Part shown: piece after piece, positions 23,139 to 28,875 of the stretch
Layout: each line of letters opens with the position of its first letter
How positions within the stretch are numbered: the first letter of the stretch is position 1
Source: Flavobacteriales bacterium
GTDB taxonomy: Bacteria; Bacteroidota; Bacteroidia; UBA10329
Reading direction: 5' to 3'
Assembly (NCBI GenBank): GCA_016124845.1
Contig: WGMW01000018.1
Coordinates: 1-43,377 of the forward strand
DNA length: 43,377 nucleotides
Program-made: the position numbers and the translations under genes
Notes under the pieces: model-generated
Seen by the model: only the letters and a program-made list of their open reading frames with translations
Databases searched by the model: none
What the model was told of the DNA's origin: nothing

Positions 23139-26100
23139 GTGCTTCTAAACACTCACACATATTACAGCTTCCATTACGGCACGGTAAAGACCGAAGAGCT
23201 GCTGGAAATTGCCGTTCGGGCAGGTGCGCGGTCTGTGGCACTGACGGATGTGAACAGTTCGGCCGCGTGTCTCGATTTTTTACGGCAAGCGCGAGAATTT
23301 GACATCCATCCCGTTGTCGGGGTCGATTTCAAAAAAGGAACGCAGACCAAGTATGTGGCACTGGCGCGAAACAATGATGGTTTTGCAGAGATCAACAGGC
23401 ATCTTTCGCAGCAGTTAATGGGTGAAATTGAGGTTTCCGACCGCGCACCTGAATTCCAGCATGCGTATGTCATTTATCCGTTTGAGCAATGGATGAAAAT
23501 GACCACCCCGTCCCTTCAGGACACCCCTCCTTCCAAGGAGGGGAACGGCACTCCGAATCAAGCATACTACAAACATCAGATCAACGCACCAGCTCTCCCC
23601 CTGAAAAGGGGGAGTACCGCGAAGCGGGGAGGGGGTCTTTTTTTTGGCTTGCGCGAAAACGAATTCATTGGCATTCGTCCCACAGAACTGATGCGATTAC
23701 AGCTTTCTCCATGGGCAAAGCAGAAAGAAAAACTGGTTGTGTTGCAACCGATGACGTTCCGTAACAAGCGTGATTTCAATACACATCGACTACTGCGCGC
23801 CATTGACAACAATTGTCTACTGAGCCGATTGCCAGCCGAGGAACAGTCCACAGAAAAAGACGTTTTCTGGCATTGCGATGACCTGCGAAAAGCGTTTGCA
23901 GAATTCCCACACATCATCGCAAATACCGAACGGCTGTTACAGGATTGCCATGTGAGTTTTGAGTTCGGGAATTACGAGGCCTCACACAATCAACATCACT
24001 TTAAAGATTCGTTTCAAGAAGACAAAGAAGAACTGGAACGGCTTTGTCAGGAAGGACTTCCGTACCGTTATCCGAATGCTGACCGAACGGTTCTGGAGCG
24101 ACTTCAGAAAGAGTTGGACATCATCGAAAAGAAGAAGTTCTACAGCTACTTCCTCATCAATCATGACATTGTCAATTACGCTAAAAGCCAAGGTTATTTC
24201 CACGTTGGGCGCGGAAGCGGTGCCAACAGCATGGTGGCCTATCTAATCGGTATAACCGATGTCGATCCGATCGAACTCGACCTCTACTTCGAACGGTTCA
24301 TCAATCCATCACGGAAAAACCCGCCCGATTTTGACATTGATTTTTCGTGGACCGACCGCGAAGATGTGACGCGCTACATTTTCAACACGTATCCGAAGGC
24401 GGCTTTGCTCGGTTCGTATTCCACGTTCAAAAACCGTTCAGTAAACCGCGAATTAGGAAAGGTACTTGGCCTGCCAGCCGATGAAATTGACCGACTGAAC
24501 GACCGCTACACCAACATCAATTCACTCGACCATCTCTCGAAACTCGTGCTGAAATACGGTGCGCGCATTCAGAGTTTTCCGAACCACACCACGGTGCATT
24601 CCAGCGGCATTCTCATTCCCGAGCGCGATATCCATTATTATGGCGCCACGTTCATGCCGCCCAAAGGTTTTCAGACCACGCAGTTCGATATGTACGTTTC
24701 GGAGGATGTTGGCCTGCACAAATTCGACATTCTCGGGCAGCGCGGACTGGGCAAAATCAAAGACAGCATTTCCATCATTAAAGAAAATCAGGGCTTGGAT
24801 GTTGATGTGCATGATATTCCGAAATTCAAGGAAGACCCTGCCATCAAAAAGCTACTGAAAACGGGCAAAACGGTCGGTGCGTTTTATGTGGAATCGCCTG
24901 CCATGCGGATGTTGCTCACCAAGTTGAAAGCCGAAGATTACAACCGCTTGGTGGCGGCCAGTTCCATCATCCGTCCAGGCGTTTCGAAAAGCGGCATGAT
25001 GCGCGAGTACATTCTGCGGTTTCAGGATGAAGAAAGGCGCAAAGCGGCCGAGGCCGAACTGCCTGATTTGTACTCCATTCTGCACGACACTTTCGGGGTG
25101 ATGGTGTATCAAGAAGATGTACTGAAAGTGGCGCACCTATTTGCCGACCTCACGTTGGAAGAAGCCGACACGCTGCGCAGAGGCATGTCGTGGAAATTCC
25201 GTGAGCGCAACGAATTCTGGTCGGTGAAAGATCAGTTTTTCAGCAATTGCATTGCGAAAGGTCATCCGAAGGAAACGATTGAAAAGATCTGGGAACAGAT
25301 TATGAGTTTCGGGAATTTTGCGTTTGCGAAAGGTCACTCCGCCAGTTACGCGGTAGAGAGTTTTCAGGCGCTATTCTTAAAAGCACATTACCCGCTTGAA
25401 TACATGGTGGCCACAGTGAACAACGGTGGCGGCTTCTACTCGAAGGAACTGTATCTGCACGAAGCCAAACTGCATGGCGCGAAAATTCATTTGCCGTGCG
25501 TGAACCGTAGCAATAGCGGAGCAAACATTTACGGCAAAGACATTTTCATCGGATTGGGAATGATTGCTGGGCTGGAAGCAGAAACGCTGAAACAACTTTT
25601 GATGGAGCGTCACCAAAATGGTGCATTCCAAGACCTGCGTGATGTGGTGAAACGCGTTCCTGTTTCGTTGGAACAGTTGCGTATTCTCATCCGAATTGGC
25701 GCATTGCGGTTTACAGGTTTGGACAAAAAAGCATTGCTGTGGGATGCGCATTTTCTACTTGGACACACCAAAGTTTCTCGGCCTGTTCGCAAACTCTTCG
25801 ATGCTGAAGTGAAGGAATTCCGATTGCCCGAACTCTGGTATCATGAACTGGAAAATGCCTATGATGAAATGGAACTGCTCGGTTTCCCCGTTACCATTTC
25901 ACCGTTCGACCTGATTGACAAAACTGGTCTGCCAACACTTACGGTAGCCGAAATGAACCAGCGCGTGAACGAGACCGTGGAGATCATCGGTTATCGGGTT
26001 CATGTTCGCGGCACGCATACCAGCGATGGCAAGTACATGACCTTCGGTAATCTCATCGACCTCGAAGGGCAATGGATCAATAGCGTGCAGTTCCCGAATG

Positions 26101-26354
26101 TGGCTGATAAGTATCCGTTCCGTGGGCCAGGCATTTACAAGTTGCGCGGAAAAGTGACCGAGGAATTCGGCCACATCAGTTTGGAAACGGAGTATTTGGA
26201 GCGCATTCCGAACATCAACATCGAAACGCCCAATACGCGCGTTGCGAATGTTGCTGTGGAAAATGGAATGAAGGGTGCGAATCGGAAGTTGGTCGGTCAA
26301 AGGTTGTATGAGGCTGACCGGAGCAATGAGTCTTCATTAACCCCGTATATTTAA
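23139..26354 (+). CDS. DNA polymerase III alpha subunit, short error-prone type (DnaE2-like)
   Basis: A 1071-residue family C polymerase with GTG start at 23139. Order: PHP domain from residue 1 (NTHTYYSFHYGT, ALTDVNSSA), palm with RGSGANSMVAYLIGITD and the catalytic PPDFDIDFSW (about residues 387-396), a finger region GVMVYQEDVLKVAHLF, helix-hairpin-helix-like segment near 850 and a short C-terminal OB region. It is far shorter than replicative DnaE of Bacteroidota (about 1200-1450 residues) and sits with dinB, so it is probably the mutagenic paralogue (inference). Residues about 121-166 are encoded by an inserted palindromic repeat pair and look foreign (TPPSKEGNG ... LPLKRGSTAKRGGG). They interrupt the PHP domain between FEQW and LRENEFIGI without breaking the frame. 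Confidence 0.85.
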   Translation: MLLNTHTYYSFHYGTVKTEELLEIAVRAGARSVALTDVNSSAACLDFLRQAREFDIHPVVGVDFKKGTQTKYVALARNNDGFAEINRHLSQQLMGEIEVSDRAPEFQHAYVIYPFEQWMKMTTPSLQDTPPSKEGNGTPNQAYYKHQINAPALPLKRGSTAKRGGGLFFGLRENEFIGIRPTELMRLQLSPWAKQKEKLVVLQPMTFRNKRDFNTHRLLRAIDNNCLLSRLPAEEQSTEKDVFWHCDDLRKAFAEFPHIIANTERLLQDCHVSFEFGNYEASHNQHHFKDSFQEDKEELERLCQEGLPYRYPNADRTVLERLQKELDIIEKKKFYSYFLINHDIVNYAKSQGYFHVGRGSGANSMVAYLIGITDVDPIELDLYFERFINPSRKNPPDFDIDFSWTDREDVTRYIFNTYPKAALLGSYSTFKNRSVNRELGKVLGLPADEIDRLNDRYTNINSLDHLSKLVLKYGARIQSFPNHTTVHSSGILIPERDIHYYGATFMPPKGFQTTQFDMYVSEDVGLHKFDILGQRGLGKIKDSISIIKENQGLDVDVHDIPKFKEDPAIKKLLKTGKTVGAFYVESPAMRMLLTKLKAEDYNRLVAASSIIRPGVSKSGMMREYILRFQDEERRKAAEAELPDLYSILHDTFGVMVYQEDVLKVAHLFADLTLEEADTLRRGMSWKFRERNEFWSVKDQFFSNCIAKGHPKETIEKIWEQIMSFGNFAFAKGHSASYAVESFQALFLKAHYPLEYMVATVNNGGGFYSKELYLHEAKLHGAKIHLPCVNRSNSGANIYGKDIFIGLGMIAGLEAETLKQLLMERHQNGAFQDLRDVVKRVPVSLEQLRILIRIGALRFTGLDKKALLWDAHFLLGHTKVSRPVRKLFDAEVKEFRLPELWYHELENAYDEMELLGFPVTISPFDLIDKTGLPTLTVAEMNQRVNETVEIIGYRVHVRGTHTSDGKYMTFGNLIDLEGQWINSVQFPNVADKYPFRGPGIYKLRGKVTEEFGHISLETEYLERIPNINIETPNTRVANVAVENGMKGANRKLVGQRLYEADRSNESSLTPYI
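23501..23636. repeat. Inverted pair of 46-bp REP-like elements inserted in dnaE
   Basis: The left element (23501-23546) contains ACCCCTCC-TTCC-AAGGAGGGG-like arms; the right element (23593-23636) contains CTCCCCC-TGAAAA-GGGGGAG, then ACCGCGAAGCGGGG and AGGGGGT. Read in reverse complement the right element aligns along its length with the left one (both start GACC, both end GG(G)GA.C). About 46 bp separates them. Both stay in the dnaE frame. Confidence 0.7.
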
Positions 26355-26377: not shown

Positions 26378-27547
26378 ATGGTAGTAAGAAGAATAACATC
26401 GAAAGTGATAGAGGCATTGGACAGTCAGGATGCTGTAGCCCTCTTGGGACCTCGCCAAGCGGGCAAGACCACGCTGGCTCATTTCATTCATGAACAGACA
26501 CCTTCCATTTACTTGGATCTGGAGTCGATGACCGACCGCAACAAGCTCAGTGATCCTGAACTGTTTCTTCGACAGCATGCGGATAAACTGGTCATTTTGG
26601 ATGAGATCCATCGTATGCCAGATATATTTCAGCCCATGCGCGGATTGATCGATGAAGGGCGAAGGACAGGCAATCGCAACAAGCGGTTTCTAATTCTCGG
26701 TTCAGCCGCCATCGACCTCCTCAGACAATCGGGCGAGACATTGGCCGGTCGCATCTCCTATATCGATATGGGACCATTTGATGTACTGGAGGTGGGACAT
26801 GATCTGAATTCGATGAACCGACTTTGGCTTCGAGGTGGTTTTCCCGATAGCTATTTGGCAAACTCCGAAGAACAGAGTTTCAACCTGAGACGCAACTTCG
26901 TCCGAACGTATCTTGAACGCGATGTTCCTCAGTTCGGCCCGAGGATCCCGTCAGAGACCTTGGAACGGCTTTGGACCATGCTGGCCCATAATCAGGGAAC
27001 ATTATTGAACAGTTCCCGATTGGCGTCCGGGCTTTCAGTCACATCTCCCACCGTTACCAGTTATATCAGTTTACTGACCGACCTGTTGTTGGTGAGAAGG
27101 CTGATGCCCTTTCACAAAAATGTTGGAAAACGGCTCGTCAGGTCTCCTAAAACGTATGTGCGGGACAGTGGATTGCTTCATGCTCTACTGGGAATCCGAG
27201 ATTCCGACACCTTGGCCGGACATCCGGTTGTGGGAGCCAGTTGGGAGGGATTTGCAATTGAGAACATACTGGCAGCCGCACCCGAACATGCAAAGGCCAG
27301 TTTTTATCGGACCGCTGATGGTGCTGAAGTGGACCTTGTGTTGGAACTCGGTGGTTCTGAAGGATTATGGGCAATTGAGGTAAAACTGGGCTTGGCACCG
27401 AAACCGACCAAAGGTTTTTTCAATGCCTTGGAAGATCTGCAACCTGACAGAGCATTCATTGTCTATTCAGGCGATGAACGCTATCCTTTGAACTCAGAAA
27501 TAGAGGTGATAGGATTGAGAGAATTGGCGGAAATGGTCAGTAAATAG
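26378..27547 (+). CDS. AAA/DUF4143 ATP-binding protein
   Basis: A 389-residue protein of the AAA_14/DUF4143 type. Walker A is GPRQAGKTT (residues 24-32), Walker B is VILDEIHRMPD (about 71-81), sensor-like LILGSAAIDLLRQS near 110. The C-terminal DUF4143 part has VRDSGLLHALLGI and the endonuclease-like SFYRTADGAEVDLVLE with AIEVKLG, a pattern reminiscent of a PD-(D/E)XK core. Function of this very common family is not established. It lies between dnaE and dinB, 23 nt after dnaE, behind an AT-rich promoter-like stretch (ATTTAAAATTAAAATTTAAA). Such genes are often mobile or variable; here it splits the polymerase pair. Confidence 0.85.
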   Translation: MVVRRITSKVIEALDSQDAVALLGPRQAGKTTLAHFIHEQTPSIYLDLESMTDRNKLSDPELFLRQHADKLVILDEIHRMPDIFQPMRGLIDEGRRTGNRNKRFLILGSAAIDLLRQSGETLAGRISYIDMGPFDVLEVGHDLNSMNRLWLRGGFPDSYLANSEEQSFNLRRNFVRTYLERDVPQFGPRIPSETLERLWTMLAHNQGTLLNSSRLASGLSVTSPTVTSYISLLTDLLLVRRLMPFHKNVGKRLVRSPKTYVRDSGLLHALLGIRDSDTLAGHPVVGASWEGFAIENILAAAPEHAKASFYRTADGAEVDLVLELGGSEGLWAIEVKLGLAPKPTKGFFNALEDLQPDRAFIVYSGDERYPLNSEIEVIGLRELAEMVSK

Positions 27548-27599: not shown

Positions 27600-27663
27600 G
27601 CATTCAGTCCATCGTCCACAGAGCCAAGCCGTGGACTGTCGTCTATCAACCGTGGACTATTTC
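27600..27663. repeat. Heptad-phased repeat 5' of dinB
   Basis: Starts GCATTCAGTCCATC and contains heptamers GTCCATC, GTCCACA and later GCCGTGG, ACTGTCG, ACCGTGG, ACTATTT in one 7-nt register. It ends 3 nt before the dinB ATG. The longer dinB frame from 27631 is just this repeat read as protein. Confidence 0.6.
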
Positions 27664-27666
27664 AAA

Positions 27667-28875
27667 ATGAAATCCATCATCCATATCGACCTTGATACGT
27701 TTTTCATCTCGTGTGAAAGACTGATCGATAGCCGATTGGTCGGGAAACCTGTTTTGGTGGGTGGCGTTACGGACCGTGGCGTGGTGGCTTCGTGCAGTTA
27801 TGAAGCGCGGGCTTTCGGAATTCATTCTGCTATGCCGATGAAAATGGCGCGGCAACTTTGTCCTGAAGCCATTGTAATACGGGGCGACAGCGGCACGTAC
27901 AGCAAATTCTCCAACGATGTGACGGAGATCATCAAGGAGGAATCGCCCTTGTATGAGAAATCGAGCATTGATGAGTTTTACATTGACGCTACGGGAATGG
28001 ACCGTTTTTTCGGTTGCTACAAATGGGCGCAGGAATTGCGCGGACGCATCATAAAAGAGACGGGGCTTCCTATTTCGTTTGCGCTTTCTACGAGTAAAAC
28101 CGTGGCCAAAGTGGGAACAGGTGAAGCTAAACCGAACAACCATCGGGAAATTCCGAAGGACACGGAAATGCCGTTTCTCGCACCGCTTTCCATCAAGAAG
28201 ATCCCACAAGTGGGCGACCAGACTTACCGCATGCTGCGCAGCATGGGCGTGGAGAAAGTAAAGACCGTGCAGGACATGCCGATGGAACTGATGGAACGCG
28301 TGATGGGCAAACCTGGCATCACGCTTTGGAAGAAAACCCATGCCATTGATAACACGCCCGTTATCCCGTATCACGAGCGGAAATCAATTTCCATCGAACG
28401 CACGTTTGAGCGCGATACCACCGATATGGTGAAGCTGAAAAGCATCATCAAGGCCATGGCCGAAAACTTGGCCTATCAACTTCGGAATGGCGACAAACTC
28501 ACCTCGTGTGTTACGGTCAAGATCCGTTATTCCGATTTTCAGACCACGAGCAAACAGCTTCGGATTCCGTACACGAGTGCGGATCATACGCTCATCAAAA
28601 CCGTAGAAGAACTATTCGATAAACTCTACGACCGCAGAGTGCTCATTCGGTTGGTTGGTGTACGGTTCAGCCATTTGGTGGGTGGCGGCTATCAGATCAA
28701 TATGTTTGAGGACAGCGAGGAAATGATCAAGCTCTATCAGGCCATGGACAAGGTTCGCAACAAGTACGGGCAGGATGCCGTGAAGCGAGCCGTGGCAATG
28801 GGTTCAAAAGGTATTGGAAGGTCGAATCCGTTCAACGGGCAGCCGCCTATTATTCCTGCGCATAGGAGAGCCTAA
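27667..28875 (+). CDS. dinB: DNA polymerase IV (DinB, Y family)
   Basis: A 402-residue Y-family translesion polymerase. Catalytic acidic residues are in IHIDLDTFFISCE (residues 6-18) and SIDEFYIDATG (about 101-111), with the Tyr/Phe steric gate region following the first motif. A helix-hairpin-helix thumb (IPQVGDQTYRMLRSMGVEKV) and little-finger domain with RKSISIERTFERD complete it. It extends primers across damaged bases at the cost of fidelity. The ATG at 27667 is chosen since the upstream frame is repeat sequence. With the DnaE paralogue it forms a two-polymerase cassette of the mutasome type; ImuA and ImuB are absent. Its stop overlaps the convergent gene by 4 nt. Confidence 0.92.
   Translation: MKSIIHIDLDTFFISCERLIDSRLVGKPVLVGGVTDRGVVASCSYEARAFGIHSAMPMKMARQLCPEAIVIRGDSGTYSKFSNDVTEIIKEESPLYEKSSIDEFYIDATGMDRFFGCYKWAQELRGRIIKETGLPISFALSTSKTVAKVGTGEAKPNNHREIPKDTEMPFLAPLSIKKIPQVGDQTYRMLRSMGVEKVKTVQDMPMELMERVMGKPGITLWKKTHAIDNTPVIPYHERKSISIERTFERDTTDMVKLKSIIKAMAENLAYQLRNGDKLTSCVTVKIRYSDFQTTSKQLRIPYTSADHTLIKTVEELFDKLYDRRVLIRLVGVRFSHLVGGGYQINMFEDSEEMIKLYQAMDKVRNKYGQDAVKRAVAMGSKGIGRSNPFNGQPPIIPAHRRA

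Follow-up and report, generated by a model that had tools for sequence, protein, structure and literature searches.

The 43,377-nucleotide stretch of DNA that was analysed here (the window), from a Flavobacteriales bacterium, contains a dnaE-like gene with a pair of palindromic sequences inside its coding frame, within the region encoding the PHP domain. This raises the question of how such sequences came to lie inside a polymerase gene, and of what became of the gene and its product. As argued below, the locus is in all likelihood the site at which a repeat largely confined to this genus entered a non-replicative dnaE paralogue, where it would be read as peptide in a gene that survives.

The features of the element are presented in Table 1. 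It is 137 bp long, and its arms of about 47 bp are imperfect inverted copies of each other, with 30 of 48 aligned positions identical (63%). The original prediction described an inverted pair of 46-bp palindromes; the inverted arms are real, but each of them is a double hairpin rather than a single palindrome. The element is beyond chance, as can be observed from its single-strand DNA folding in comparison with shuffled sequences (z = -4.05), from the number of matches expected per window in the shuffles (0.02 for the left hairpin and 0.00 for the right terminus), and from its repetition in the genome. A covariance model of the family, R1, which was built from 16 copies aligned end to end, matched the window copy at positions 23501-23635 with an E-value of 2.7e-14, this copy being itself a member of the training set.

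Table 1. Features of the element and of its host gene in the window.
Feature	Position	Strand	Basis
dnaE paralogue, Pol III alpha-like, 1071 aa, GTG start	23139..26354	+	ORF, domains, structure match
Whole inserted two-ended element	23501..23637	+	R1 covariance model match; gap in orthologues
Left arm: terminus GACCACCCC; hairpins at 23510-23522 (GTCC/GGAC) and 23524-23543 (CCCCTCCTT/AAGGAGGGG)	23501..23547	+	Sequence, folding, arm alignment
Spacer separating the arms, 42 bp	23548..23589	+	Sequence; most variable part among 16 aligned copies
Right arm: hairpins at 23595-23614 (CTCCCCCT/AGGGGGAG) and 23617-23627 (CCGC/GCGG); terminus GGAGGGGGTC	23590..23637	+	Sequence, folding, arm alignment
Eight-T run adjoining the right end, in-frame read-through as Leu-Phe-Phe	23638..23645	+	Sequence; flank table (23 copies)

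In the protein, the element corresponds to a loop that joins the IYP strand to the NEFIG strand and has 59 residues in the window DnaE and 11 in five orthologues of the same genus. These orthologues are 77-82% identical over the whole gene and have a clean empty site, so that the net gain is 48 residues, or 144 bp. The loop is short in 20 of the 22 aligned proteins, the more distant DnaE homologues included (10-14 residues where measured, otherwise clearly short by eye). The segment is thus absent from near and distant homologues, which agrees with the clean gap that the original prediction had named as support for an insertion; its statement that the frame is kept and that about 46 residues (121-166) are added was also close, the ORF being open and the position near to the residues named. 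In the AlphaFold model, the insert (residues 125-168) has a pLDDT below 50, whereas the flanking strands reach about 87-92, and the insert peptide is predicted to be a disordered, Pro/Gly/Lys-rich segment of about 46 residues. The only other long loop, of 48 residues, was found in the DnaE of genome G003, where it is filled by a different dispersed repeat, with the outer ends CTCCCCTG/CAGGGGAG and with parts that are present elsewhere in G003. Two repeat families have therefore entered the same dnaE loop. Two further observations were made nearby: the dnaE of G001 has, at GARTERSR in the same PHP region, an in-frame 24-bp piece with CACTGAGCGAAGTCGAAGTG, perhaps another small repeat family, and a Lacinutrix dnaE has tandem DVATTLL units directly before the same PHP-domain strand.

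A blastn search with the dnaE element found about 28 further places in the genome, and R1 found 35 distinct places at E <= 3.1e-4 (a manual count from the match list, with both strands at one place counted once). The family element is 100-150 bp long, two-ended and dispersed, with inverted arms that mostly have two hairpins each, and with the ends (T)GACC...GGTC(A/T). Its consensus is GACCTCCCC-[optional hairpin]-CCCCTCC..GGAGGGG-spacer-CACCAG-TCTCCCCC..GGGGGAG-[variable hairpin]-GAGGGGGTC. The flanks of the copies are A/T-rich, often with AAAAT preceding GACC (23 copies), and a target-site duplication of at least 3 bp was observed in 1 of 23 copies, against 1.7 expected from re-paired flanks. 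At E <= 1e-6, R1 matches were obtained in 6 of the 9 genomes belonging to the genus, as compared with 2 of the 286 from elsewhere in the class, with no other family of the order represented among the genomes searched; the repeat is non-coding and largely confined to this genus. The best of six Rfam matches scored 15.5 bits, far below the gathering cut-offs, and a search of plasmid and phage collections with the element gave no match. Additionally, in four copies (L002, L011, L025 and L028) a smaller CCCTTCGACAAGCTCAGGGC-like repeat is nested in the left hairpin, and relatives of the element (L247 in G057 and L248 in G179) come from two further families in the class, the left arm in G057 (ACCACCCCGTCCTGCGGACACCCCTCC) closely resembling that in the window.

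An inverted pair of hairpin-forming units, separated by a spacer, dispersed and lacking target duplications, is also the repeated unit of REPINs (PMC3116915), and the genome has one REP-associated tyrosine transposase (RAYT) above the NCBIfam cut-off, at contig C33, with the motif YIHNNP as in subclass 2.6 (subclasses 2.4 and 2.6 are described in PMC6006769). The element could on these grounds be a REPIN proper, an inverted REP pair moved by a cognate RAYT (TnpAREP) of the genome. However, a different repeat, GATCAGTC...GACTGATC with CAAGAC...GTCTTG, flanks the C33 RAYT as well as its relatives in G005 and in G003, and this gene was rejected as the mobiliser. Moreover, the ends are GACC...GGTC and not a GT[AG]G foot, and in no Y1/RAYT locus of the genus does the element lie on both sides, the single R1 match being several hundred bp away from the RAYT of G005. 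In G004 and G007, of which the latter is only 76% complete, the element is present but no RAYT was matched at E <= 0.001. We therefore consider a REPIN proper unlikely. The IS200-type genes at C28, C35 and C54 had no R1 match in the flanks examined (two of them at contig ends), and no autonomous parent with the same ends was seen near the copies whose surroundings were examined. With prokaryotic MITEs, of which BrickBuilt of Porphyromonas is an example (PMC4596501), the element shares its short, non-coding nature, its dispersal in Bacteroidota and its imperfect terminal inverted repeats of about 48 bp; it differs from them in lacking a target-site duplication, and no parent insertion sequence was found near the copies examined. 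Because the arms form strong hairpins and there is no target duplication, we infer that the data suggest movement in trans by a single-strand route of the HuH/Y1 type. A second family with an in-frame copy was observed in the same genome at L221 (G000:C23:6589-7110), where a RAYT-like gene contains LHATSPHHATSPHHATSP in frame, derived from TTGCATGCAACGTCTC palindromes that also flank the gene, as for TnpAREP subclass 2.4.

The expectation that the element would recur elsewhere in the genome was borne out, at dozens of places and in many cases in frame inside genes. Spanning ORFs enclose 11 of the 35 places, in dnaE, pheT, hutU (twice), hisH, aroA, mutA and ileS, and in genes for an ABC-transporter ATPase with a Wzt_C domain, a secreted protein with a sorting domain and a membrane protein with a methyltransferase domain. 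At least nine genes besides dnaE thus carry the element, several of them housekeeping genes; carB (E = 0.007) and the tail of pdxJ are weaker or terminal cases. Pfam supports the identities of the host genes, except for the N-terminal membrane part of the membrane/methyltransferase protein. It is important to mention that only copies spanned by an ORF were counted as intragenic, and that frame keeping is thereby built into this set; gene-breaking copies lie outside the count, and we do not claim that insertions are always in frame. Empty sites were found in the orthologues of all five genes compared (dnaE, pheT, hutU, hisH and aroA). The structure 6uek lacks both of the hutU inserts, and the carB insert sits in the linker joining the two halves of the protein, as judged from the alignment to 1bxr. 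The frame offset is 0 in pheT and hutU and 1 in dnaE, the ABC-transporter ATPase and pdxJ, and hisH has the opposite strand. Frame and strand vary by gene, and therefore no particular peptide is being kept. The proposal that such repeats spread into genes and become peptide is supported by the empty sites and the in-frame copies, the peptide itself presumably being made. On one contig, G000:C26, about 20 kb holds four strong copies in frame (two in hutU and one each in pheT and hisH), a denser cluster than elsewhere. In the 699-aa membrane/methyltransferase ORF (L169), a second, Ser/Arg-rich insertion (SLRSESQE...SLRSGKQQE) is present at residues ~505-535 and absent from the G007 and G006 versions.

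The remaining copies are mostly located right behind or between ORFs, often directly behind stop codons, and some of them form at the junction a TGA that is the stop of the neighbouring ORF. Together with the RNA fold of the element (z = -3.25) and the eight T residues directly after its right end, this position could mean that the element acts as RNA or DNA, as an attenuator, a terminator or a folded control structure of the mRNA, and that the peptide is a by-product. The terminator scan did not flag the plus-strand site, however, and the location varies by gene with no conserved position relative to starts, which makes this reading very unlikely for the dnaE copy.

The host protein has PHP, DNA_pol3_alpha (palm/NTPase), finger and HHH_6 domains, its AlphaFold model matches solved Pol III alpha chains, and it passes the cut-off of the generic polc model TIGR00594; with the DnaE2 model NCBIfam NF004225 it scored 456 bits, below the cut-off of 939. 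A Y-family polymerase gene (IMS family, 27631-28875) is located one gene further downstream, and a DUF4143 AAA ATPase gene (26378-27547) lies between the two. The original prediction left open that this dnaE is a decaying pseudogene that tolerates the insert. The paralogue may indeed be dispensable, as a probable replicative DnaE, about 32% identical to it, is encoded at G000:C60, and its dN/dS is slightly raised, being 0.098-0.115 against the five orthologues and 0.046-0.083 between the empty orthologues, or about 0.10 against about 0.07. Nevertheless, the ORF is full length, the dN/dS of about 0.10 was obtained over 992 gap-free codons, the catalytic motifs PDFDIDF and KFDILG are retained, and the same repeats occur in pheT, ileS and carB, which cells are unlikely to do without. 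Decay is accordingly highly improbable; the window dnaE is under purifying selection, possibly with a mild relaxation, and pheT and hutU showed no clear elevation of dN/dS. That the insert is an assembly chimera, as might happen at a repeat in a 65-contig draft genome, has a negligible probability, since a single gene continues in the same frame on either side of the insert, and the same pattern is found with different sequences in several other genes of this genome and in independent genomes of the genus.

We consider, then, that insertion of the dispersed repeat into a loop at the surface of the PHP domain best accounts for the locus. The ORF would have stayed open because the net gain is 144 bp and the frame used is without a stop, giving the disordered residues described above, and the gene would have survived because the loop is permissive, naturally variable in length and distant from the polymerase core. 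The insert is probably translated, and the enzyme, which is predicted to be intact, probably works. The same process has put in-frame copies into many other genes of the genus, and different species often have them in the same loops.

Such recurrence was observed directly. The first hutU loop has different inserts in G003, in G004/G005 and in G008, and the pheT loop has a different insert in G005. Further genes are affected in other species: leuS of G007 has an insert of its own, and a glycosyltransferase in G002 and G004 has inserts that are partly different. In hutU and pheT of the present genome, a decayed left half is followed by AAAAT and then by a fresh copy, an arrangement that suggests insertion beside older copies, or recombination with them. 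A broader scenario, to which we give little weight, is that the elements return to the same permissive loops because they favour existing copies or certain genes, that whole lineages in this way keep remodelling the loops of core enzymes with selfish DNA, and that some inserts have become useful.

The principle of such insertions is already published, even for a dnaE gene, from Rickettsia palindromic elements (RPE) and from REPs in genes. RPE were described by Ogata et al. (2000, 2002), as summarised in PMC3733652 and PMC10969869, as palindromic repeats of ~100-150 bp found in frame in many unrelated genes, and R. conorii dnaE also carries an in-gene repeat (PMC3733652). The present element shares with RPE the in-frame insertion in unrelated genes, with gaps in the homologues (here of dnaE, pheT, hutU, hisH, aroA and carB). 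It differs in its phylum, in its two separate double-hairpin arms, and in that RPE families encode a conserved peptide, whereas here frame and orientation vary. This comparison rests on described features; the RPE parallel drawn in the original prediction fits the way in which the element acts, without identifying it as an RPE. Intragenic GTAG/CGTC REPs form inverted dimers in DNA repair and translation genes, including dnaE2 (PMC3733652). Inverted dimers inside genes, DnaE2 included, and repeat ends that often supply stop codons are common to both, whereas the consensus here has no GTAG/CGTC tag and has GACC ends and, mostly, two hairpins per arm. The closest case in the literature searched is that of TnpAREP subclass 2.4 genes, which have in-frame REPs within the transposase itself (PMC6006769). 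No earlier report of such in-frame repeats in Bacteroidota was found in a literature search that missed most subscription journals. New in the present case are the repeat family itself, the group of bacteria that hosts it, how many housekeeping genes are involved, and the recurrence at the same loops in sister species.

Selfish repeats turned into protein are best known in Rickettsia, where obligate intracellular life could explain the tolerance. Here, the same outcome is observed in housekeeping genes of a Bacteroidota genus whose genomes measure 2.4-4.4 Mb. Since empty and differently filled alleles are present within one genus, loop tolerance, insertion preference and the fate of the peptides become testable. 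The finding also calls for caution in annotation, as a Pro/Gly/Lys-rich insertion in a protein of this kind may stem from a repeat instead of being a functional domain.
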